Source: Comamonas testosteroni
GTDB lineage: Bacteria; Pseudomonadota; Gammaproteobacteria; Burkholderiales; Burkholderiaceae_C
Length of the DNA stretch: 64,000 nucleotides
Direction of reading: 5' to 3'
Assembly (NCBI RefSeq): GCF_014076415.1
Contig: NZ_CP043568.1
Coordinates: forward strand, 3,100,001-3,164,000
The translations under genes were made by a program, and so were the position numbers. Position 1 is the stretch's first letter. Each line of letters starts with the position of its first letter. The notes below the pieces were generated by a model. It was not told the DNA's origin and did not search any database. It saw only the letters and a list, made by a program, of their open reading frames with translations. Shown here in pieces: positions 16,201-49,684 of the stretch.

Positions 16201-16290
16201 GGTTTATGGCCGGGAGGGCGACGGATACAAGACCCGCAAGGGGAAGAAGTCCGCCTGGCTGTACCCAGGTTCTTAACCTCCCGGCCGCCT
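16201..16290 (+). ncRNA. C4-antisense-RNA-like leader of rha (copy 1)
   Basis: A 10-bp perfect closing stem GGCCGGGAGG (16208-16217) / CCTCCCGGCC (16277-16286) encloses a small hairpin ACCCGCAAGGGG and a second CCTGGCTGTACCCAGG. This layout and position, directly upstream of an antirepressor-type gene, match the C4 RNA known from P1/P7 and many prophages, which controls ant translation. The call rests on pattern and context; no covariance model was run. Confidence 0.6.
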
Positions 16291-16350
16291 TATTGCAGTG
16301 CGTAAGAACGCTGCGATAAGGCTTCACAAGTCTCGTACAGGAGCAGCACC

Positions 16351-17142
16351 ATGTCTCAGCCCGCACTGGCTATCTCTCCCGCCGTCACCATCGTTGACGG
16401 CATCCCCACCACTCTCAGCACCGATCTGGCCAGCCACTTTGGCAAACGCCATGACGACGTGTTGCGCGGCATTCGCAATCTCTGCGCTCAGTTGCCCGAA
16501 GGGGGTGTCCGCAATTTTGCGGAGACCTCAGTCACCGGCGAGCAAAACGGACAAACCTACCCCGCCTACCGGCTGACCCGCGACGGCTTTACGCTGCTGG
16601 CCATGGGCTTTACGGGCAAGAAGGCGCTGGCCTTCAAGCTGGCCTATATCGATGCCTTTAACCGCATGGAAGCCGCGCTGCACCAGCCGGCTGACACGCA
16701 GCGCATGGAGCTGGCCTTCTCTCTGGCCGCAGAGGCTGCGGCGCAGGTGCACCGCACGGTGTTCAATGCGGTGATGGAAGGCGATGCAGACGAGTGGCAG
16801 CACAGCCGCTATTTGCTGAACCTGAACTACGACAGCCAGGGCCGCCCCACTCTGCCCCATGCCCAGCCGATTGCGACCGACCAGATGGTGGTGTCCTTCA
16901 GCAGCCTGCCGCAGCGCATTGCCGAGGGCGAGATCATGAGCGCGACCGATGCGCAACTGGCCACGCTGGCAACGGCCTGCACGCAGCGGCTGACCCAGCA
17001 CGCCCAGCACCGCGAAAAGCAGGTGATGCTGCCGGTGTACCCTGGCAATTCCCCCGGCCGGCGCCCCGCGTCTGCACCGGCCCGGTCAGCCAAGCAGCCC
17101 CCTGCGCCCGATGAAGGCCTGCTGCGCATGACATTCAAGTAG
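16351..17142 (+). CDS. rha: Rha family phage regulatory protein (copy 1)
   Basis: 263 residues. Rha N-terminal domain (about 15-115): TTLSTDLASHFGKRHDDVLRGIRNL and YRLTRDGFTLLAMGFTGKKALAFKLAYIDAFNRME are diagnostic. The C-terminal part (about 125-230) is shared with the second Rha of this prophage. Rha proteins regulate phage development and resemble antirepressors; the C4-like leader suggests RNA-level control. Start ATG with GGAG upstream (caggagcagcacc). Confidence 0.9.
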   Translation: MSQPALAISPAVTIVDGIPTTLSTDLASHFGKRHDDVLRGIRNLCAQLPEGGVRNFAETSVTGEQNGQTYPAYRLTRDGFTLLAMGFTGKKALAFKLAYIDAFNRMEAALHQPADTQRMELAFSLAAEAAAQVHRTVFNAVMEGDADEWQHSRYLLNLNYDSQGRPTLPHAQPIATDQMVVSFSSLPQRIAEGEIMSATDAQLATLATACTQRLTQHAQHREKQVMLPVYPGNSPGRRPASAPARSAKQPPAPDEGLLRMTFK

Positions 17143-39166: not shown

Positions 39167-40276
39167 TCAGTCCTCGGCCTCGATCACATGCACGGCAGGA
39201 TCGAAGTCAAAGAAGCCAGGCTTGAAAGTCAACGAGTCGACCTGAGCACCTTCAGGACAGGCGTCAATGAATGCCTGTACCGGCTTCAGTTTCTCCCGGA
39301 CATCATGGGCCACCCTCATCCGTGCACCCGCGGCCTTCACTTCGAAAAGCCGATAGATGTCATAGGGGCGCTCGCTAGAGGTGGCGTACCGGATCTCGCC
39401 AGCTGACAGATGAAGCGGGGTCTCGAACTTTCCAGAGGTGCTTTTTGCATCAGCCTCCCTGGTCAATCCAGCCTGCTCGATCCGGAAATCGAAAGGAGCA
39501 ATTGCATTGGTGATCGAAACCCATTCATGTGATGTGACGCCCTGCAGGGTTCCGGACAGCCACTGGTCCATCAACTTCTCACCCAGCTCACCGGTCAACG
39601 CAGCTGCAGCAAGCGATTCTTTGAAATCATCAGGACTGATACCGCGCCCGGGACGACTCGCGTTGAGTTGACGGATTGCCTCAGGATTGCCGACTGCAGC
39701 CTCTTCCAGCAGCACCCCGTCCAGCCACTCCAGAATCGGATGTCCAGCGACTGGAGCAGCTTCATTCACGGCACTGCGCAGAAGCTCCTCTGTCAGGGGA
39801 GTCATCGAGTCAGCTGCATTCGGCAAAAGCTTCCGGAAAGCAGCGTACAGCCCCGAGTCCGGCTCACTGGCGGAAGATACAAGCACTACCTTCACGACGC
39901 TTGGCAAGCCGGTCCCGACGAACTCGATGACAGCAAAATCATCGGGCATCATGCTCGCAAAACGCCCCGTCTGGCCCTCCGGATCATGAACATACTCGCC
40001 ATTGAGGCGAATGTTCTTGGCGTCAATCTTCACCCGCCTGACCAGCGTTTCCATCGGCGCAAGGCCTGGCCCCTGCAGCGTCAGTTCGACAAACGTGCCC
40101 TTCTTAGGCAGCGGCTCCAGCAAGGTACGGAGCCCCGGATAGAAAGCGGGGCTCTCCATGACCTTCACGTCCAGATTGAACGCTTTCTGTTTTGCAGTTC
40201 CCTCTTTCTCGAAGCGGGCCTTGAAAAAAGACAGGTCAGACGGTTTCAGCTTCTTCAGCGCGAGTTTTCTCGACAT
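39167..40276 (-). CDS. DUF3883-like nuclease candidate in methylase operon
   Basis: 369 residues. The C-terminal third (about 270-360) contains FDFRIEQAG, ADAKSTSGKFETPLHLSAGEI and YDIYRLFEVKAAG, matching the DUF3883/NOV_C layout with a D...(D/E)xK core. The first 250 residues are of no known family. It overlaps dcm by 41 bases and precedes vsr, so the three are one operon. It is the best candidate for the restriction activity, though that is an inference from gene order and fold pattern. Confidence 0.65.
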   Translation of the reverse strand: MSRKLALKKLKPSDLSFFKARFEKEGTAKQKAFNLDVKVMESPAFYPGLRTLLEPLPKKGTFVELTLQGPGLAPMETLVRRVKIDAKNIRLNGEYVHDPEGQTGRFASMMPDDFAVIEFVGTGLPSVVKVVLVSSASEPDSGLYAAFRKLLPNAADSMTPLTEELLRSAVNEAAPVAGHPILEWLDGVLLEEAAVGNPEAIRQLNASRPGRGISPDDFKESLAAAALTGELGEKLMDQWLSGTLQGVTSHEWVSITNAIAPFDFRIEQAGLTREADAKSTSGKFETPLHLSAGEIRYATSSERPYDIYRLFEVKAAGARMRVAHDVREKLKPVQAFIDACPEGAQVDSLTFKPGFFDFDPAVHVIEAED

Positions 40277-41765
40277 TTTTCTCCCTCAGCAAACCCATGA
40301 TGTTATCCGCCAGGGCCTTGGCCAACAACGCGGGGACAGCGTTGCCGATCTGCTTGAAGGCAGGATTCATCGAGCCGGAGAGAACAAAACCGTCAGGGAA
40401 CGACTGCAGGCGTGCGGCTTCGCGCACGGAGATCGTCCGCGCCTGGGTGCTGTCATAGTGAATGTGCGAGTAACCATCCTTGCCCAGGTGCGCCATCAGC
40501 GTGCGGGCAGGCGCATCCGCCTCCATCTTGCGCCACTTGTTCGGGAACTTGGTCGCGTCATACGGCGGTACCGTTGCTGCCCACAGGTCCTGGTACTCGC
40601 GAGACTTCTCGCCAAGCACCTTGCCCGTCTTCTTGCGCAAGGCCTCGATACGCTCTTCAAAGAGCTGGACGGCATGTGCATGCGCTTCAGGGTATTGGTC
40701 CCCGGGGTTCATGCGCTCAAAGATGGCGTAGTCCCGCGGCAGGAAACGGATCACATGATCCTTCACACCGATGCGATTTTCGAAGCCGGACCATGTCCGC
40801 ATCAGCTTTGCATAGGCATTCAGCTTGCCCGCCGGGTACTCCATCACGGTGTCGAACCTGCGTGCACCCTTCTTGAGCTTGCCCTCCAGGTGCTCCGTGA
40901 GTCTGGGCAGATCCTTCAACGCATCTTCTGCAGTCACCGCAGGCAGGCATTTCTTGCGGTCCGCCACCGGGGGCTCGTGAAAGAACGAATCCTGCTCGAA
41001 CAGCCCACGGCGCACTGTCTGCAGTGCAACCTGACGGGTACCTTCATACCCTTTGGGCATGTCGATCCAGTGCGTGGGAGTGGGAAAGACGATCCTGTCG
41101 GCCACGGATCTGGCCACGGCAATCAGGAACATGCGCTCCCGCATCTGCGGGGCACCGAAGTACACCGAATTGAGCAGCGTATAGCCGCAGCGATATCCCA
41201 TCTCGGTCAGGATCTCGCAGGTCTCCTCGGCAACATTGTGGCCGCCGTAGTTCAGCACATCCGGAACATTTTCCATCAGCAATGCGATGGGTTTGAGCTT
41301 GTTCACATAGTGCAGATAACGCAGATAAAGGTTGCCTCTGGGGTCCTTGAGGAATGCCTCGGGATGGTCCGCGACTTCACGCAGCTTGGCACGGCCGACC
41401 CGTGCAAACGCCTGACATGGGGGGCCGCCCACAATCACGTCCACATGCCCGGTTGCATCACCCTCGCACCCGAGCATGGCCAGCAGCTCCTCGGGCTCGG
41501 TCTTCGTGATGTCCTTGGCCTGTGCATGCACCTCGAACAGTTCGTGCGGTACATCGGACATGAAATTGATGGCGTGCGAACGCGCTGCATCCGGATCGAA
41601 CTCGACTGCACCAATCGAGTGGAAGCCCGCAGCATCGAAGCCCAGCGACAGCCCGCCGCAGCCGGCAAAAAGATCGAGAGTGCGTGGAGCATTTCCGGCC
41701 AGGATGCGTTCGTGCTTGCGATCGACAAGGTCCTGAGGAAGCGGCGTGAAGTGGTTGTTGGACAT
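40236..41765 (-). CDS. dcm: DNA cytosine-5 methyltransferase (Dcm type)
   Basis: 509 residues with all key motifs: I LDLFAGCGGLSLG, IV GGPPCQAFARVGR, VI LLMENVPDVL, VIII APQMRERMFL, a long target-recognition region (about 230-420), IX REAARLQSFPD and X FKQIGNAVP. Methylates cytosine at an unknown site. The partner Vsr and the DUF3883 protein lie downstream. It sits between the direct repeats at 38667 and 42050, suggesting acquisition as a unit. Confidence 0.95.
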   Translation of the reverse strand: MSNNHFTPLPQDLVDRKHERILAGNAPRTLDLFAGCGGLSLGFDAAGFHSIGAVEFDPDAARSHAINFMSDVPHELFEVHAQAKDITKTEPEELLAMLGCEGDATGHVDVIVGGPPCQAFARVGRAKLREVADHPEAFLKDPRGNLYLRYLHYVNKLKPIALLMENVPDVLNYGGHNVAEETCEILTEMGYRCGYTLLNSVYFGAPQMRERMFLIAVARSVADRIVFPTPTHWIDMPKGYEGTRQVALQTVRRGLFEQDSFFHEPPVADRKKCLPAVTAEDALKDLPRLTEHLEGKLKKGARRFDTVMEYPAGKLNAYAKLMRTWSGFENRIGVKDHVIRFLPRDYAIFERMNPGDQYPEAHAHAVQLFEERIEALRKKTGKVLGEKSREYQDLWAATVPPYDATKFPNKWRKMEADAPARTLMAHLGKDGYSHIHYDSTQARTISVREAARLQSFPDGFVLSGSMNPAFKQIGNAVPALLAKALADNIMGLLREKNVEKTRAEEAETV

Positions 41766-42049: not shown

Positions 42050-42064
42050 TCAATTTGATAGCAA
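42050..42064. repeat. 15-bp direct repeat, right of methylase cassette
   Basis: TCAATTTGATAGCAA, second copy; see 38667. It ends 38 bp upstream of the membrane-protein start. Confidence 0.6.
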
Positions 42065-42102
42065 AACCAGAATCGTACAAACAACAGTCAGGAGGAAATC
42101 GT

Positions 42103-42870
42103 TTGGACAAGTATTACGAACTGGCCAGCAAGTACTTTGAAACCTTCGAAGGCAGACACCTGTACCCCAGGCTGCTGAGCTGGCAATGGATTCTCTGGGC
42201 CATTTTTGGCATCTGCTTTGTCGGAGCCATCTGCATGTCTCTCTGGCTGCGCACACGGCCATGGATTGCGTCCATCTATGTTGCTGAAGTTCTTTTTTTA
42301 AGCATGGGCTTCGCCATGGTCCATCACCGCAAGAAACGACTTGACGAGCGCTTTGGCCTGACTGACGAGAACAGATCGACTCGCTTTAGAGCAATGCAGA
42401 AGATGCACCTGCAGTTTTTGACCAACAAACAGGCCACAGAATTTGCAGGCATCGTCAAGGAAATCGCAGACCTGCGCAGCAATCTGGACCGTTTTTCCCC
42501 TCCAAAAATCAACTACTTCAGGCTGATTTACGACCTGGATGCCAAGGCTCGCCTGATCTCCATCACGCTCGCGTCGCTCGCGCTGTTTGTGGCATTGGCC
42601 AGTCGAACAACCGATGCCGAGTTGCTCAACCTCCTGGAATTGATAGCCCACCCCGCCTTTGGCGTATACCTTCAAAATCTGCTCTGGATTTCCGTAGCCA
42701 TCTTTGCTGTTGGCGTCGGCATGTACTACAGCTACCTTGAGTCGAAAGCTTTCCTCCTTAGCTGGATGGCAAGGCTTGGCAGAAACAAAAAAGCCAATGA
42801 ACTGGCTCTCGAATACTTTGTGACTGCACTCATTGAACAGCACGACCCAACTCCTCTGGACAAGAAGTAG
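42103..42870 (+). CDS. Four-TM membrane protein, unknown
   Basis: 255 residues. Two TM helices near the N-terminus (about 27-50, WILWAIFGICFVGAICMSLWL; about 55-75), a soluble helical loop of about 80 residues (RSTRFRAMQKMHLQFL...), then two more TMs (about 153-170 and 200-225). The arrangement recalls SLATT-type pore-forming effectors, but the motif match is loose. TTG 42103 is chosen because AGGAGG lies 7 bases upstream. A LexA-like box lies 150 bp upstream. It runs opposite to its neighbours and is probably cargo. Confidence 0.7.
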   Translation: MDKYYELASKYFETFEGRHLYPRLLSWQWILWAIFGICFVGAICMSLWLRTRPWIASIYVAEVLFLSMGFAMVHHRKKRLDERFGLTDENRSTRFRAMQKMHLQFLTNKQATEFAGIVKEIADLRSNLDRFSPPKINYFRLIYDLDAKARLISITLASLALFVALASRTTDAELLNLLELIAHPAFGVYLQNLLWISVAIFAVGVGMYYSYLESKAFLLSWMARLGRNKKANELALEYFVTALIEQHDPTPLDKK

Positions 42871-42994: not shown

Positions 42995-43777
42995 CTATTT
43001 GAAGGTCATCATCAGCGTGCCAGGCGGCATGCTGGGTGCGGGTTGCACTGCGGTAAGGCCGGGCTTGGCAGCCTGCTTTTCGCGGTGCTGGGCGCGTTGG
43101 GTGAGGCGCTGGGTGCAGGCTGTGGCCAGGGTGGCGAGCTGGGCATCGGTGGCAGAAAGGATCTCGCCACTGGCGATGCGCTCGGGCAGCGCGTTGAAGG
43201 AGACGATCATCTGGTCGTCGCCAATGGGCTGGGCATGGGGCACGCTGGGCTGGCCTTCGCGGTCGTAGCCCAGGTTGAGCAGATAGCGGGCATGGCGCCA
43301 GTCGGTGTTGTCTGCGGCCATGACGGCGTCGAACACGGCCTGTGTGACCTGGGCTGCTGCCTGGGTGGCCAGACGCTGGGCAAGCTGAATGCGCTGCGGG
43401 TCTTGCGCGGGCTTTTGCAGCTCGGCTTCCATGCGGTTAAAGGCGGCGATATAGGCCAGCTTCCAGCGCAGCGCCTCTTTGCCGGTAAAGCCCATAGCCA
43501 GCAGCATGAAGCCTTCGCGGGTCATGCGGTAGGCACCTTCTTCACGTGATGCGCCGCTGCCGATTTCAACGACATGAACCATGCGCGCAAAATTGCGCGC
43601 ATGGTCCTCGGGCATCTCTGCAGTCAAGCTGCGGATAGCGCGCATCACATCGCGATGGCGTTTGCCAAAGAACTGAGCGACTTGAAGACTTGTGGTGGTG
43701 ACGGTGCCGTCGTGAATGGAAAGCTCGGGGCGAGCAGATACGACGGATGCAGAAGAACCGGTAGAGATGTCAGCCAT
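42995..43777 (-). CDS. rha: Rha family phage regulatory protein (copy 2)
   Basis: 260 residues. The Rha domain reads VAQFFGKRHRDVMRAIRSL and YRMTREGFMLLAMGFTGKEALRWKLAYIAAFNRME; the C-terminal part (ARYLLNLGYD, PHAQPIGDDQMIVSFNALPERIASGE, SATDAQLATLATACTQRLTQ) is nearly that of the first Rha at 16351 but in opposite orientation. AGGAG precedes ATG 43777. A C4-like RNA lies upstream. Downstream DNA (TTTTGATAGCT..AGCGCTTGA) is also similar at both copies. Confidence 0.9.
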   Translation of the reverse strand: MADISTGSSASVVSARPELSIHDGTVTTTSLQVAQFFGKRHRDVMRAIRSLTAEMPEDHARNFARMVHVVEIGSGASREEGAYRMTREGFMLLAMGFTGKEALRWKLAYIAAFNRMEAELQKPAQDPQRIQLAQRLATQAAAQVTQAVFDAVMAADNTDWRHARYLLNLGYDREGQPSVPHAQPIGDDQMIVSFNALPERIASGEILSATDAQLATLATACTQRLTQRAQHREKQAAKPGLTAVQPAPSMPPGTLMMTFK

Positions 43778-43829
43778 GGTCAGGCTCCTGTTGATGGACT
43801 TTGAGCCATCACCTCCCCTGCCAAGAGAA

Positions 43830-43920
43830 GGTGGTGGACCGTGCAGGGTTGGCAGACCGGCAACAGGCACCGGCACACCCTCGCGGGTGTCCCCACACGG
43901 CCCACCGTAAAGCGGAGCCA
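43830..43920 (-). ncRNA. C4-antisense-RNA-like leader of rha (copy 2)
   Basis: On the minus strand a closing stem GGTGGGCCGTG / CACGGTCCACC (43833-43916; one G-U pair) encloses ACACCCGCGAGGGTGT (43875-43890) and CCGGTGCCTGTTGCCGG (43857-43873). The three-hairpin layout equals the element at 16201 although the sequences differ, so the structure is conserved with different pairs. Position upstream of an antirepressor-type gene fits C4 RNA. Confidence 0.55.
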
Positions 43921-43947
43921 TGTGCACGCAGACATGCTCTAGAAAGC

Positions 43948-43980
43948 AAAAAGCCGCTGACCATCTTTGTATGGCGCGGC
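43948..43980 (-). terminator. Terminator-like hairpin in second rha leader
   Basis: GCCGC (minus strand, 43980-43976) / GCGGC (43957-43953) then TTTTT; mirrors the hairpin at 16133 relative to its C4-like element. Confidence 0.45.
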
Positions 43981-44059
43981 CGCTGCGCCTGTTGTTTCCG
44001 GGCTGCCAAGCCCAGATCACGCTTACGGGCGTGATGGCGCTTTATATCATAAAAATCAC

Positions 44060-44420
44060 AAAAAAATAAATAAGCGAGTACTTAAGAGCGATAAGTATTG
44101 ATAGACAAAAAACTGTTTGTTACAGTGACTCCGCACTAGGCGAAATCGTCTAGGCTGCATTACCGAAAGTTTAGAACAGAAAAGAGAAGCTAAAGTTTTC
44201 CTTTCAAGGAAATCGTTCTGCAAAAAGAACCTTACCGGCACCTCGCGAGGCTCGCCGCCGGACGCAAACCAGTCGTGGGGCGCGAATGGCGCAAGCTCTG
44301 AGAGTCGGTTGTTGTGCTAAAAGGAAGTACCTGAGTCAGTTGCTAGTTGTTATTCTCTTGGAGCCGATTGAGTGTTGTGCGGCGCATTAATTTTGATGCG
44401 CCATAACTCATGAGGTACCA
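44060..44420 (+). ncRNA. Candidate retron ncRNA (msr-msd) region
   Basis: A 380-bp non-coding stretch upstream of the retron genes. Visible hairpins: ACTGT/ACAGT (44112-44126), CTAGGCG/CGTCTAG (44136-44153), TTTCC..GGAAA near 44199, CCGGC/GCCGG (44235-44261) and GGCGCAT/ATGCGCC (44381-44402), plus GTACCTGAGT pairing with ACTC..AGGTAC across 44327-44418. Retron ncRNAs lie just here, 5' of the RT operon. I could not fix the a1/a2 repeats or the branching G, so boundaries are approximate. Confidence 0.5.
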
Positions 44421-44422
44421 AA

Positions 44423-44644
44423 ATGGGAAATACCCAAACGCAAAACTGTTCAAAAATCGAAATCATTAATAGCAATATTAATGTGAACGTAACGGTAAAA
44501 GTGATTTACGTGCGAGAGCAGGTAAATCATAAAAGCAGCGCTCGCAGCTGGCTCGGCTGGAAGAAAGTTGGCGAAATCCTTCTTCCTTTCATGCTTAAAT
44601 CCTTAACAGAGGTAGACTGGTCTAACATCCTGTCATACTTTTAA
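44423..44644 (+). CDS. Small protein in retron operon, unknown
   Basis: 73 residues, no recognised family. The N-terminal half is polar and Asn-rich with alternating hydrophobics (KIEIINSNINVNVTVKVIYV), predicting beta strands; the C-terminal half (WLGWKKVGEILLPFMLKSLTEVDW) looks like an amphipathic or membrane-seeking helix. GAGG lies 8 bases before ATG. It sits 28 bp before the reverse transcriptase, so it is probably part of the system; an accessory protein or toxin is possible. Confidence 0.6.
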   Translation: MGNTQTQNCSKIEIINSNINVNVTVKVIYVREQVNHKSSARSWLGWKKVGEILLPFMLKSLTEVDWSNILSYF

Positions 44645-44672
44645 ATAAGGTAGGTACTTTACCTTTCTTGAT

Positions 44673-45842
44673 ATGCGCCCAATTTTCAATAAGAAATCTA
44701 TTGGCTCAATTGAAGCTCTATCTGATGCACTTCAGGTAAATAAGCACATCCTTCAGAATACTGCAGACAATATATTCCAGCACTACCATCCTTACGAGAT
44801 TAAGAAGAAGGATGGCGGAACTCGGTTGATTCATATACCCACGCTGCATTTAAAAATAATTCAAAAAAGAATTAATAAAAATATTTTTGACAATGTCACC
44901 TATCCCGACTATCTGCACGGAGGTATTGAGGATAAAGATTATGTCAAAAATGCACTTTCTCATGCAAATGCAGAGGCAATCATTTGCCTAGACATCAAGA
45001 ATTTCTACCCTTCAATTACTCAAACTAGAGTAAGCAAGATATTTCAGTATTTTTTCAAGTTTCCCGAAGACGTATCAAACTTGCTTGCAAAGCTATGCTG
45101 CCATGAAGAACGGGTACCACAGGGCGCTTGCACTAGCTCACATTTAGCGAATTTGGCTTTTTTTGATTCCGAATACCATTTTGCATCGTTCTGTAAAAGC
45201 AAAAAATACACCTACACCAGATTGCTAGATGATATTACGATCTCAAAATCGAGTGCTTTCTCGGATACTGAGATAAGTAAAGCGATTGCCAGTGTCAAAT
45301 CCATAATCTCCCCACACGGGATAAAGCTAAATAACAAGAAGCAAAAAATTGTCTCAAGGTCCAACCCTAAAGACTTAATGGAAGTCACTGGCCTGTGGCT
45401 AAATCGAGGTCGCCCTAGAGCGCATCGTAGCTATCGTAAAGTCGTGCGACTCGAAATGCACATTTGCGAAAAGATGGCGAAAACCGATAGATTTAGCGAA
45501 GAATATCACAAACTTCATAATAGAGTATCAGGAAAAGTTTCAAAGCTTTCCTATCTTGGCCATCACGAAGCGACAAATTACCGAGATACATTACAGAAGA
45601 TTTTGCCTTTGTACGATATACATAAGGCAACCAATCTACATAAAAATGCTCTAATTCTAAGCAAAGTAAACGCAAATATCAGAAAGAAATTTGCATACTT
45701 TAAACGATATTCAAAAATCAACTACGAGCTAAATATCCTAGCAAGAAACAACAAACCTCTTAGCAAGACAATTCGAAATATTCTAAGCAACTGCAAACCC
45801 AGCGGTTTACGCGACGATCTTCTTTACAATGAACCAATCTGA
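44673..45842 (+). CDS. Retron-type reverse transcriptase
   Basis: 389 residues. Palm motifs: LDIKNFYPSIT (first catalytic Asp), PQGACTSSHLANLAF, and the catalytic pair in TRLLDDITIS, where YxDD is replaced by LLDD. Retron hallmarks NAxxH (KNALSHANAEA) and VTG (MEVTGLWLN) are both present, which separates it from group II intron and DGR enzymes. The C-terminal thumb is Lys/Arg/Asn-rich. It overlaps the cold-shock gene by 14 bases. The gene is far more AT-rich than the phage around it. Confidence 0.88.
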   Translation: MRPIFNKKSIGSIEALSDALQVNKHILQNTADNIFQHYHPYEIKKKDGGTRLIHIPTLHLKIIQKRINKNIFDNVTYPDYLHGGIEDKDYVKNALSHANAEAIICLDIKNFYPSITQTRVSKIFQYFFKFPEDVSNLLAKLCCHEERVPQGACTSSHLANLAFFDSEYHFASFCKSKKYTYTRLLDDITISKSSAFSDTEISKAIASVKSIISPHGIKLNNKKQKIVSRSNPKDLMEVTGLWLNRGRPRAHRSYRKVVRLEMHICEKMAKTDRFSEEYHKLHNRVSGKVSKLSYLGHHEATNYRDTLQKILPLYDIHKATNLHKNALILSKVNANIRKKFAYFKRYSKINYELNILARNNKPLSKTIRNILSNCKPSGLRDDLLYNEPI

Positions 45843-46059
45843 AAAAGAAAATTCCTTCACAATCGGAACGATTAAGTGCTATTTTCCATTAAAAGGATTT
45901 GGCTTCATAACCAGAGAAAAAGGAAAGGATGTCTTTTTTTTCTTCCAGAACGTCGCAGATGAAAGCCATATTATCGAGGGGGCAAAGGTTCAATTTAAAT
46001 TGAATAAAAATGAAACCGGGAAAGGCCCCTTTGCTACCGAAATTGAAAGAATCGGTTAA
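45829..46059 (+). CDS. Cold-shock-domain protein, retron partner
   Basis: 76 residues, a single OB-fold cold-shock domain: GTIKCYFPLKGFGFI holds RNP1 and DVFFFFQNV holds RNP2; it ends EGAKVQFKLNKNETGKGPFATEIERI. The 14-base overlap with the RT gene indicates coupled translation. Retron-Se72 is reported to use a cold-shock protein partner, so this is the probable effector or accessory protein. It could bind msDNA or RNA. Host cold-shock genes are not normally in this setting. Confidence 0.85.
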   Translation: MNQSEKENSFTIGTIKCYFPLKGFGFITREKGKDVFFFFQNVADESHIIEGAKVQFKLNKNETGKGPFATEIERIG

Positions 46060-46153
46060 TTTTTCAAGGCTGAACATCAGACATAAAAACATTTAATAAA
46101 AAGATATGTAACTTCTAAGCTAGAAAGCATTACTAAAAAATGTGCAGACAGGT

Positions 46154-46519
46154 TTAGTTTTGCATGAGAATCCGCTGCACCTGTCTCACGCTTAGACCAA
46201 ACCGCCCCGCAAGCTCCCGCGCATTGCACCCGTCAAAGCTGGCGCGGATCTCCTGAGCCACCCGCTCGCGCTCCCTCACCCGCTCATTGCGCACATAAAC
46301 ATTGAGCCCACCCAGCCGCTGCACATAACGGCGCACCAGCTCTTCCGTCAGATCCTCCACCCGCTCCACGCCATGGCATAGCGCGGCGGCGGCCAGTTCT
46401 TCGCGCAGCACGGCAATGGGGTCCAGCTTGTTGTGGCTGGATACCGAAGGGGTGGCGGTTGCGTTCTTATCGTTCATTGTTTTGATAGCTGGGTGCGCTT
46501 GCTGTGCCTGCGTTTGCAT
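46154..46519 (-). CDS. Mor-family transcription activator-like protein
   Basis: 121 residues. The C-terminal part (about 65-121) is GGLNVYVRNERVRERERVAQEIRASFDGCNARELAGRFGLSVRQVQRIL, the Mor/Mu middle-operon activator fold with helix-turn-helix. Start could be ATG 46519 or 46477; no good ribosome site separates them. It lies 9 bp after the terminase stop and so may be transcribed with it. Mor-type proteins activate phage late or middle promoters; this one may drive the head-tail operon. Confidence 0.75.
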   Translation of the reverse strand: MQTQAQQAHPAIKTMNDKNATATPSVSSHNKLDPIAVLREELAAAALCHGVERVEDLTEELVRRYVQRLGGLNVYVRNERVRERERVAQEIRASFDGCNARELAGRFGLSVRQVQRILMQN

Positions 46520-46528
46520 TGGTTTTTA

Positions 46529-49500
46529 TCAATAGAGGCTGATGGGGCTGAAAAGCTCTTCGTCCGCCAGCTGGCGCGACGGGCTGGGCCGCGCTGGCGC
46601 GCGTGGCGGTGCGGCTTCATCGCCCTGCGGCTGTGGCTTGTTGGCCTGCGCCGGGGCGGTGTTGAAGAGGTCTTGCGGGGGCTGCACGGTTTGCTCCAGC
46701 TGCAGCCAGCGGGCCTCGGGCCATTTGTGGATGCCAAGGCACATGGCGGCGTGCAGGGCGTAGTTGCGGCAGTTGCCCGCAATAAAGGTCTTGCCTCCAC
46801 GGCGCAGGATCAAAGTGCCGTTGGGAACCGTGGCGCAGTACACACGCCCTTCGTATTGCACGATCTGCCCTATGTAGCCGCGCTTGCCGTTGCCGCCGCC
46901 ATCCAGATAGGCGCGTGAGGCTAGGCGCTCATAGACGTGGTACTGGAGCTTTGGAATCGCTGGCGACTCATGCCCTCTGATGATGGGGCGGTGCTTGGGC
47001 TGCACCAAGCGCATCGATGCTGCGTTTCCAATTTTGATAAACAACTCCTGCATGTCATCCGCCAGCAAGCGAGACGTTGTGGCATAGGCGCGGCTTGGTC
47101 GATGGTGGTTCTCACGCTGCTGGACCCAGCCATCACCAGCAATGGCCGCAGTGAGGAATGCCTCTATAACGCTAGGCTTGGCATCCTTGATCCACTGAGG
47201 CACCCGGCGCTCATGCTGCAAGCGCCCCAGCGGTGCAACCAGGTCGTAGGCTTGCATGCAGGTGAGGATGTACCTGTCCGGGGAGATATGGAAGTTCCAT
47301 GGCAGACGGGACAGCAGTGCTTCGATCTCGCGGCGGCGCTCTGGCTTGACTTGGTGAAGCGTGACACGCCTGCGCACATTGCCCTGTGTTTTGCTACGCA
47401 CTTCCTGCACAGAGCCTTCGGACACCCACCACCCGAAGAAGGCCGCCATGTCGTGGGCATCGACAACCACCTCTGGCAAGAGAATGCGGTTTTGCGAGGA
47501 CACGGACTGGGGGATGACATAGGTGTCCGACTGATCCCCTGTCCAGGTCGAAGCAATCTTGAGTGCATGGTGCACGGTCAGGTCTTTGGCCAGCGTGATT
47601 TGCGGCGGCACATCAAAGTCCCATTTACGCACACCGGGAGCAATGGTTTTTTGCTGCTTTTTCAGGGTCACCATGCGATGGCCGGGCGTGACCAGGACAT
47701 CAATGGACTTGCCTTTGAGTTGCACCATGTCACCGCTGTAGGGCTTGTCGATCAGTAGCGATGGCTTTTGGTACTCAATCAGATCGGTAGAGAGGTCTAC
47801 CGTCGCGAACAGGTCTTCGTACCCTACATCTGTCCAACGCCGCCAGCCGCCGTGCGTGAGAACTTCGGTTTCAGCGTCAAAGCAGTCCAACACCTCGTTC
47901 CGAGGCCTGCGCTTGACCCAGCGGTACACATCCTTGCCGTTGACCTTGACGAGCACGCGCTGCTCTGCGGTGAGCTGCTCGTACCATTCTCGCGGCAGCT
48001 TCTGGCTGGTGTGCACGTAGCCGGGGCCGGGTTTGTCGATGGCGAGCTGGCCCAGCAGCAGGTCTTTGGCGCTGTCCACGCCCACCAGCCAGAGCTTGAT
48101 ACCGTGCGATATCTTGCGGCCGCGGTAGTTGACTTCTTGCAGGCTGCTGGGGCCGACGATGTTGCGGTTGTCGTTGTTGTCGCCCTTGATGGCGCGCAGG
48201 CCGGCAAGCTGCCCTTGCGCGCTGCGCACCCAGTTGTAGACGGCCTGGGTCTGGTCGGACGAGTCGATGCTGATGGCACTGAGGCCCAGGCTGCCGCCGT
48301 GCCAGGCCTGCACATAGCGCTGCTGCAGGTATTGGGTGACGGGCTCCCAGTCGGCCTCGCTAGCGGGGTTGCCCTGTATGACCTGGTGGGCGATGGCCCA
48401 GCTTTCCAGACCACGGCCCCAGGCCCAGATGGCGATCTCCCACCGGTCGCGCTGCACGTCGACCCCGGCGGTGAGCAGCAGCGCGCCGGCGGGCACGCGG
48501 CCCAGGGGGTAGTCTTCGGCCCGGGCTTGCAGGGCGTGTTCGTCGCTGCTGTCGCCCTTGAGCTCCCAGGTCTCGCCCAGGGTTTCGTTGGTGAAGCCGG
48601 TCATGGGCGCCACGTCGCCTGCCTGCAGGGCGCGGTGGGCTTTTTCAAATTCATCGACGATGCTGACCCAGGTGCGCTGGGGACTGTAGGCGGCCCAGAC
48701 ATGCACGCCCAGGGTGCGCGGCGGGCGGCAGGGCTGGCCCGCAGCGTCGCGCCAGATGCGGTCTGCGCCGTAGCGGCGGCCGGTCTTTTTGCAGACCCAG
48801 GTGCCGGTGAGCGGCCAGCCGCCGGGCAGGTAGTCGGCCTGGGTGATGCTCTCCAGGCAATGCGGGCAGACGTGATGCACGCTGGCGGGCTGGCCTTTGA
48901 CCCATTTGAAGCCGTAGGGCAGCTCTTTGCTGCCCCAGACGAGCGGGTGCTCCGCGCCGCAGCGCGGGCATTCGATGTGGTACTGGACGTAGGCGTCGGA
49001 TTCTTCGCAGGCGCGCTCCACATGGCACATGCCTTTGACGCGGGGTGTGCTGCCGCCGACGAACTTGGGGTATGGCGCGCCCTCCAGCCGGCCTTTGGCC
49101 AGGCTGCCGGGGTCGCCGGATTTCTCGATGCTCTGGTCGAAGGCGCTCCATTCGTCGAGGATGGATACGGCCACGGTGATGCGGCGATAGGCCCGCGCGG
49201 CCTTGCCGCCCAGCAGGTGCAGCACGCTGTCGCGGAAGGGCTTGTATTTGATGGTGTCCTCCACCCCCTTACCCTGGCGGCGCGCGGCCTGCACGGCGGC
49301 CACGCCGTCGAGCACGGGCTCGATCTCGCTCTTGACGTAGCTGTCGCGGTCGTCGTCGGTGGGCTGCCACAGCGCCTGCTTGCGGCGGCGGTGGGCGATG
49401 TTGTAGGCGACGAAGGCGGTGATCATCTTGGTATACCCGATACGTTTACTCTTGCGAACCGCCAGCTCCTCGATGCGGTCGTCGCTCATGAAGTCGAGAA

Positions 49501-49684
49501 TTCCGAGCTGAAACGGCCAGCCGACCCAGCCGCCCTTCTGGTGGCTGGATTCGCCGGCCAGCAGAAAGTGCTCTGCCGCCCATTCGCTGAGGGTTTGCGG
49601 CGCATCGGCCCGCAGGCTGGACAGGCCCAGCGCGGCTGCGGCCTGAATGGCAGCCATGGCCTCGGGGCTGAGAGGTGCGCTCAT
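46529..49684 (-). CDS. Terminase large subunit (gpA family) with intein
   Basis: 1,051-residue precursor; about 680 residues after intein removal, normal for gpA-type TerL. ATPase part (about 1-345): GWPFQLGILDFM, VRKSKRIGYTK (Walker-A-like), VAVSILDEWSAFD (Walker B); a zinc-ribbon-like ECPRCGAEH / CPHC insert is at about 238-276. Nuclease part: LTAGVDVQRDRWEIAIWAW, ISIDSSDQTQ and the post-intein CRNYALHAAM. Packages DNA into the prohead. The start overlaps TerS by ATGA. Confidence 0.93.
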   Translation of the reverse strand: MSAPLSPEAMAAIQAAAALGLSSLRADAPQTLSEWAAEHFLLAGESSHQKGGWVGWPFQLGILDFMSDDRIEELAVRKSKRIGYTKMITAFVAYNIAHRRRKQALWQPTDDDRDSYVKSEIEPVLDGVAAVQAARRQGKGVEDTIKYKPFRDSVLHLLGGKAARAYRRITVAVSILDEWSAFDQSIEKSGDPGSLAKGRLEGAPYPKFVGGSTPRVKGMCHVERACEESDAYVQYHIECPRCGAEHPLVWGSKELPYGFKWVKGQPASVHHVCPHCLESITQADYLPGGWPLTGTWVCKKTGRRYGADRIWRDAAGQPCRPPRTLGVHVWAAYSPQRTWVSIVDEFEKAHRALQAGDVAPMTGFTNETLGETWELKGDSSDEHALQARAEDYPLGRVPAGALLLTAGVDVQRDRWEIAIWAWGRGLESWAIAHQVIQGNPASEADWEPVTQYLQQRYVQAWHGGSLGLSAISIDSSDQTQAVYNWVRSAQGQLAGLRAIKGDNNDNRNIVGPSSLQEVNYRGRKISHGIKLWLVGVDSAKDLLLGQLAIDKPGPGYVHTSQKLPREWYEQLTAEQRVLVKVNGKDVYRWVKRRPRNEVLDCFDAETEVLTHGGWRRWTDVGYEDLFATVDLSTDLIEYQKPSLLIDKPYSGDMVQLKGKSIDVLVTPGHRMVTLKKQQKTIAPGVRKWDFDVPPQITLAKDLTVHHALKIASTWTGDQSDTYVIPQSVSSQNRILLPEVVVDAHDMAAFFGWWVSEGSVQEVRSKTQGNVRRRVTLHQVKPERRREIEALLSRLPWNFHISPDRYILTCMQAYDLVAPLGRLQHERRVPQWIKDAKPSVIEAFLTAAIAGDGWVQQRENHHRPSRAYATTSRLLADDMQELFIKIGNAASMRLVQPKHRPIIRGHESPAIPKLQYHVYERLASRAYLDGGGNGKRGYIGQIVQYEGRVYCATVPNGTLILRRGGKTFIAGNCRNYALHAAMCLGIHKWPEARWLQLEQTVQPPQDLFNTAPAQANKPQPQGDEAAPPRAPARPSPSRQLADEELFSPISLY
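46772..47884 (-). mobile_element. Intein with LAGLIDADG-type endonuclease inside TerL
   Basis: 371 residues (precursor 601-971). Block A CFDAETEVLTHGGW begins with Cys; block B VLVTPGHRM; endonuclease motifs FFGWWVSEGSV and FLTAAIAGDGWV (DOD type); block F VYCATVPNGTLILRRGGKTF; block G FIAGN then +1 Cys (CRNYALH). The residue before the final Asn is Gly rather than the usual His. Splicing would restore EVLD-CRNYALHAAM, the conserved nuclease region. Inserted, as is common, at an active-site motif. Confidence 0.92.

Follow-up and report, generated by a model that had tools for sequence, protein, structure and literature searches.

A type V (Se72-type) retron with a small third gene and repeated boxes among prophage genes of Comamonas testosteroni

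Described relatives and assignment of the locus

Retrons are bacterial reverse-transcriptase (RT) elements, and phage defence is their supposed role. Type V is described through its cold-shock partner: PADLOC pairs the model RT_V with CSD_V, a protein with a cold-shock domain (CSD), and the NCBIfam effector is this same CSD protein. Retron-Se72 (Sen1), present in Salmonella and on E. coli plasmids, has an RT of the RT_V kind with the motif RLLDD together with a CSD protein that is annotated as belonging to the NCBIfam Se72 family. In type IV (the Ec48 type), the nearest RT group in the tree discussed below, the partner is a membrane protein. Outside the retrons, type I toxin-antitoxin systems combine a small hydrophobic protein, a structured leader, and nucleic-acid complementarity.

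The window analyzed here, a stretch of 64,000 nucleotides from Comamonas testosteroni, carries an RT of 389 aa (44673..45842, + strand) that matches PADLOC RT_V at 2.8e-112 (373.7 bits; the runner-up, RT_IV, scores 247.5) and Pfam RVT_1 at 5.1e-20. Its AlphaFold2 model has a mean pLDDT of 91. Directly 3′ of the RT, and overlapping its end, is the gene for a 76-aa CSD protein (45829..46059, + strand), which is recognized by PADLOC CSD_V (1.6e-25) and passes the cut-off of 82 for the NCBIfam model retron_eff_Se72 with 85.6 bits, i.e., it is labeled by NCBIfam as the Se72 effector.

A previous reading of the DNA from its sequence only had pointed to the retron motifs NAxxH and VTG, and both are found in the RT, the former as NALSH. 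In alignment A1 (28 rows), N93, H97, T239, and G240 are invariant and A94 is nearly so. The sequence-only reading had also listed LLDD as a departure from the norm. The motif is present, but RL[LI]DD occurs in 28/28 rows of A1 and LLDD is therefore typical of the clade, so its treatment as an anomaly was rejected; remoter type V loci have RLTDD (L033) or RLVDD (L045).

A maximum-likelihood tree built from the fetched loci (58 RTs) places the window RT inside a group of 12 rows, all of type V, with support of 100/99. The nearest rows of another type (L062-L064) connect to those of type V through a long branch with support of 91/84. With respect to monophyly of the type V rows, the tree needs two label changes, and a single change suffices in only 16% of the bootstrap trees. 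The named relatives of the RT, at about 60% identity, come from Comamonas, Hydrogenophaga, and Lampropedia, and the host genome (5.95 Mb, 2 contigs) has one match to the window RT at E <= 0.001. Both PADLOC and the tree place the RT among retrons, and the PADLOC and NCBIfam matches bear out the description of a retron that has a noncoding RNA (ncRNA), sits among phage genes, and is partnered by a cold-shock protein like that of Se72. Judged by RT_V, CSD_V, the NCBIfam Se72-effector cut-off, and the RT phylogeny, the locus is almost certainly a type V (Se72-type) retron, and within its own clade it is an ordinary one.

The comparison with the described systems supplies both likenesses and differences. 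The Se72-type loci L053 and L055 share with the window the ncRNA helices, the repeats A and B, a small ORF before the RT, and a hairpin inside this ORF (see below). The RTs, however, are only about 36% identical (tblastn), and Se72 resides on a small plasmid whereas the window locus lies among prophage genes. Here, L054 and L055 are taken to be Se72 itself on the basis of annotation and host, not of the original sequence. With regard to type IV, L062 has an RT_IV match and a 236-aa 2TM_IV protein after the RT, while L063 and L064 have ORFs of 236 and 234 aa in that place, known by size only. Unlike the window, these three loci have no CSD and no small ORF under the strict rule used below. In the window, CSD_V follows the RT, and 2TM_IV matched none of the five ORFs scanned.

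The arrangement ncRNA–73-aa ORF–RT–cold-shock gene had been described as an AT-rich operon oriented opposite to its phage neighbors, a description confirmed by the ORF positions and the GC content. Positions 44041-46062 have a GC fraction of 0.389 vs 0.604 window-wide, and the 2022-base stretch with the lowest GC in the window begins at 44101 (scan step 100). All three ORFs are on the + strand, while the nearest phage genes are all on the − strand: a Rha-family gene (42995-44020), a Mor-like activator (46154-46519), and a terminase (46529-49684). The ncRNA, the small ORF, the RT, and the CSD gene are probably carried on a single transcript. A promoter-like consensus match, TTGATA-17-TACAGT with TG preceding the second hexamer, is positioned just upstream of the ncRNA (44098..44126, + strand); since 6 such sites were found in 2.4 kb vs 4.8 expected by chance, the match is by itself no evidence. 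The locus is best explained as a complete retron of type V (Se72-type), an AT-rich piece of cargo amid prophage genes. In a search for an insertion hotspot, relatives of the Mor-like gene were found in 2 of 299 genomes (the host included) and in no phage record.

A small third gene before the reverse transcriptase

Between the ncRNA and the RT lies an ORF of 73 aa (44423..44644, + strand) with GAGGT before its ATG. The sequence-only reading had regarded it as an unknown extra gene that stands outside the nameable retron layouts. The databases scanned have no family for it, but the gene is near-constant in the type V loci examined, including Se72-type Salmonella and E. coli plasmids. The loci compared were drawn from genome contigs (21), viral contigs (9), further genomes, and plasmids; type V was called where a CSD gene follows the RT, and 43 loci were usable, i.e., could be read upstream of the RT (a CSD is visible in 42; in L023 the contig ends). 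In all 43, an ORF of 52-85 aa with an ATG start, chosen by eye where several ATGs were available, ends 18-59 nt before the RT. It is preceded by a Shine-Dalgarno (SD)-like motif in 41 loci, and the +1 and +2 frames over it are open in 1/43 and 0/43, respectively.

Under a strict version of this ORF rule, the gene is found in 38 of the 39 non-redundant type V loci, where 0.17 would be expected in first-order Markov sequences, and in 0/20 retrons without a CSD; the sole miss (L024) has no SD-like motif. Both the strict rule and the A/B rule discussed below were written after these loci had been seen. Among the loci fetched later, L071 and L100, both with a CSD, have the ORF by the strict rule (2/2), and 0/8 of the non-V loci examined do. 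These results are difficult to reconcile with the proposal that the 73-aa gene marks a distinct retron subtype. The absence of a model for the gene from the libraries scanned speaks for that proposal, but the type V loci examined carry the gene, and the window RT sits within a well-supported group of type V rows. A new subtype is thus very improbable and was rejected, because the small gene occurs across type V; homologous loci carry both the ncRNA and the gene.

That the ORF encodes a protein is suggested by the way it changes. Among 12 pairs of relatives, some of them non-independent, 8/8 gaps between small ORFs are multiples of three, and substitutions fall most often on third codon positions (186/161/221 over the three positions, p 0.008). 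The dN/dS values, about 0.2-1.1 and often near 1, are weak coding evidence by themselves. In 10/10 pairs for which RT dS could be computed, the small ORF has the lower dS, which argues for an added constraint at the RNA level. The small ORF of the window contains a hairpin with a GAGA loop (44501..44530, + strand), with a z of −4.1 vs synonymous-codon redraws. The best local hairpin in mid-ORF exceeds the average synonymous redraw in stability in 34/38 loci (mean z −1.30) and in one of the two later loci (L071, z −1.43; L100, z 0.15). Many of the loops are GAGA, with GGAG in L058, L060, L061, and L100.

The hairpin and the low dS raise the possibility that the stretch is mainly RNA, a second, hairpin-bearing msr-like element in which the ORF serves as a leader peptide or as a translation-coupling device. 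However, the intact, ATG-started frame in every usable locus (52-85 codons), the closed alternative frames, the gaps in multiples of three, and the SL motif and basic N-termini that are common to the small proteins of the window branch all argue against this explanation, which we consider improbable. The small gene is, on these comparisons, very probably real and type V-wide.

The protein family is nearly invisible to searches by similarity. The 73-aa protein has no family in PADLOC, Pfam, NCBIfam, or PHROGs. None of its relatives rises above the Pfam cut-off (8 scanned) or matches PADLOC (6 scanned), and among the six relatives compared with PHROGs there was one match (L017, 0.0021), to a PHROG of unknown function. 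A protein search with the 73-aa sequence returns only itself and one relative at 81%; the family is visible by position only. In plasmids, the Se72-type small ORF is matched over at least 98% of its length in 29 records, 1 of which has an annotated feature under the match according to a plasmid gene table that is itself incomplete. A type V RT unaccompanied by a sequence match to the small ORF was found in plasmids of Halomonas and Edwardsiella, in CP051740, and in two Alteromonas records. In the Halomonas and Edwardsiella plasmids, position reveals a divergent small ORF, the Edwardsiella copy being annotated as hypothetical; CP051740 has a truncated E. coli RT and no small-ORF match, and the two Alteromonas records combine a type V RT match with a different partner.

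Se72-type retron DNA is present in 29 of 5426 complete E. coli genomes and is plasmid-borne in 39 of 40 places (e.g., NZ_CP103484.1, L053). Two further loci appear to be damaged. L021 (Advenella sp. S44) matches only RT residues 169-389, lacks a listed small ORF where one would be expected, and is probably a decayed type V copy. L009 (Candidatus Burkholderia humilis) has no in-frame start codon at the expected start of the RT and is probably a damaged retron.

A hairpin-containing ORF in Se72 is mentioned in a 2019 review. In full-text searches of open papers, we found no description of the type V small ORF beyond that remark. The locus points to a third gene of type V retrons that is near-constant and mostly without annotation, together with the co-varying repeats described below, where novelty refers to the description of the type as visible in databases and open papers. 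If the third protein is indeed a constant component, constructs made from the two named genes may lack something essential, perhaps the effector itself.

The ncRNA and the repeats A and B

The ncRNA (44131..44382, + strand, both ends predicted) opens with the first hairpin and runs through repeat B; its structure and sequence are conserved in 12 loci of the window's RT branch and 22 of the other main branch. An ncRNA upstream of the small ORF had been proposed from the sequence only, within 44050-44420; the RNA is there, while its start is probably near 44131. The region 44041-44425 is more stable than shuffled sequences (z −2.6). The fold comprises a hairpin at the 5′ end, a long-range stem that closes the structure, and three inner helices. 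The 5′ hairpin P1 (44134..44153, + strand) corresponds to helix 1, in which 100% of the alignment cells are paired and 5 of 6 pairs show changes on both sides. The closing stem (helix 2) joins an a1-like left arm, AAGAGAA (44182..44188, + strand), to an a2-like right arm, TTCTCTT (44353..44359, + strand), and the two are 100% complementary. A further local hairpin is predicted between box B and the SD sequence of the small ORF (44381..44402, + strand).

The structure is supported in both main branches of the RT tree, in part by construction, because the structures come from the alignments on which they were scored. In the window branch (12 loci), 94.1% of the cells pair and 56 both-side changes are observed vs a shuffle mean of 19.9. 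In the other main branch (22 loci, mostly from gammaproteobacteria and viral contigs, with L059 from a Burkholderiales genome), 98.7% of the cells pair, with 79 both-side changes vs a shuffle mean of 21.5. None of 500 shuffles reaches the covariation of either branch, and controls with slid positions are 30-53% paired. The number of further pair types shows no excess, as it is reached by 152 and 379 of 500 shuffles.

No Rfam family matches within 44041-44422. A covariance model of the 5′ part, trained on the other RT branch only, gives a single, weak match in the window (44132-44240, + strand; 15.5 bits, E 0.26). Among the 16 type V loci outside the training set, the model finds the right place at E < 0.05 in L034, L005, L032, L009, L003, and L033 and at E 0.15-0.48 in L004, L008, and L045; it misses L002, L006, L007, L058, L060, L061, and L022 (searched in full). 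Of the 20 non-V loci, none does better than L046 (E 0.3).

The ncRNA and the leader of the small ORF share a short repeat. Box A, GTTGTTGTGC (44308..44317, + strand), is enclosed by the closing stem. Box B, TGTTGTGC (44373..44380, + strand), lies in the leader, 63 nt after its copy in A, between the closing stem and the SD sequence. Across loci, B is positioned 35-66 nt before the small ORF, and the spacing is 59-68 nt in those loci whose match is A/B. As the repeat in a single locus is often insignificant (shuffle p 0 to 0.6), the case for it is built on comparison. The last six bases of A recur in the locus's own leader in 38/41 loci, with L006, L009, and L061 failing, vs 8 of 328 comparisons (summed) for the leaders of loci of another type; box A was not found in L022 and L045. 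With near-copies left out, the own-locus match holds in 34/37. On the RT tree, the A core has 9 states and has changed at least eight times. In L071 and L100, the two boxes agree in their core. Collectively, these data support the view that most loci keep A and B identical to each other although the sequence differs from one lineage to the next.

The RNA contains no reverse complement of the repeat, the exception being L022, which is without an A box; hence the shared partner, if it is a nucleic acid, is most simply a cDNA copied from A. A and B could alternatively constitute a site shared by a protein. Pairing of box B with an ACCGGC box was inspected by eye and is inconsistent. In the Se72-type plasmid locus L055, the span from A to B is 71 nt, close to the 72 in the name Se72. 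A 2025 preprint reports an additional band of ssDNA. The co-varying boxes would offer a handle both on the synthesis of double-stranded DNA by Se72 and on a possible control of the small gene by cDNA.

Effector candidates and the prophage setting

The small proteins tend to have a hydrophobic end. The hydrophobic maximum lies within the C-terminal half in 41/43, the exceptions being the window protein and L022, and KD19 is at least 1.6 in 19/43 and at least 1.2 in 33/43. The window protein is among the least hydrophobic and gives no transmembrane helix by this measure, with a KD19 of 1.02 and its maximum outside the C-terminal half. The net charge is positive in 37/43. AlphaFold2 models the window protein as helical with low confidence (mean pLDDT 61, pTM 0.21), with residues 41-73 at about 70-77. 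Over 15 pairs, the mean identity is 0.70 for the RT, 0.64 for the CSD, and 0.53 for the small protein, which diverges faster than the RT in 14/15 pairs and faster than the CSD in 10/15.

Four features make the small protein the likeliest effector: its constancy, its fast divergence, the hydrophobic end of most copies, and the fact that the partner in the nearest retron type is a membrane protein. The chances that it is the effector appear about evenly balanced. It is possibly a membrane-acting toxin. The serious rival is that the CSD is the effector and that the small protein acts as an RT cofactor, as an antitoxin, or as a localisation factor anchoring the complex at the membrane. The databases favor this assignment, as NCBIfam names the CSD the Se72-family effector and PADLOC lists it as the type V partner. 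The CSD is likewise constant (42/43; in L023 the contig ends), although by construction, since it defined type V, and the small gene is placed directly 5′ of the RT. Cold-shock domains, however, are usually nucleic-acid chaperones and not toxins, and the fast divergence of the small protein relative to the RT and the CSD is effector-like, if suggestive only. An effector role for the CSD is thus the less probable of the two assignments, and we regard it as unlikely.

With the small protein as effector, the locus may be read as a type V retron in which a small-protein effector is kept silent and a cDNA derived from A is able to pair with B, a reading as a whole to which we give an even chance. 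By analogy with the two-TM partner of type IV, the small protein would act at the membrane. The RT, the ncRNA/cDNA, and the nucleic-acid-binding CSD would hold it silent, and disturbance of the cDNA by a phage would release it. A cDNA copied from A would be complementary to B and could anneal in the leader of the small ORF. There it might serve as primer for the second DNA strand that Se72 is reported to make, or it might repress translation of the small protein. Co-variation is the evidence for pairing of A and B through the cDNA, a step whose likelihood we judge to be somewhat short of even. In a stricter, four-part version, the cDNA of A on B would be an antisense antitoxin (or a second-strand primer site) for a small membrane toxin, and loss of the cDNA during infection would free the toxin. 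This version is doubtful. Type I toxin-antitoxin systems use an antisense RNA, whereas here the complementary strand would be a cDNA made by the RT; if true, an RT-made DNA antitoxin would work on its own messenger.

Several features of the surrounding prophage were observed in passing. A C4 antisense RNA (Rfam, 69.6 bits; 43827-43912, − strand) is positioned at the start of the Rha-family ORF next to the retron. Beside it is a weak isrK-like match (43947-44018, − strand; 24 bits vs a gathering threshold of 50). These RNAs adjoining the retron perhaps belong to the immunity/antirepressor control of the prophage. A second Rha-family gene (16351-17139, + strand; TIGR02681) has an sRNA-Xcc1 match just 5′ of it (Rfam, 69.7 bits; 16208-16294, + strand), so that both Rha-family ORFs of the window adjoin an Rfam RNA. 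The large terminase subunit (46529-49684, − strand) contains a long, intein-like insertion: the terminase match extends up to residue 609, and a thymidylate synthase family matches at 598-717. Such thymidylate synthase-type families carry inteins. On the other side of the retron, an ORF of 271 aa (42055-42870, + strand) with a GC of about 0.5 and, by eye, hydrophobic stretches has no family in Pfam, NCBIfam, PADLOC, or PHROGs. It lies beside a C5-cytosine methylase gene (40236-41765, − strand) and may be additional prophage cargo.
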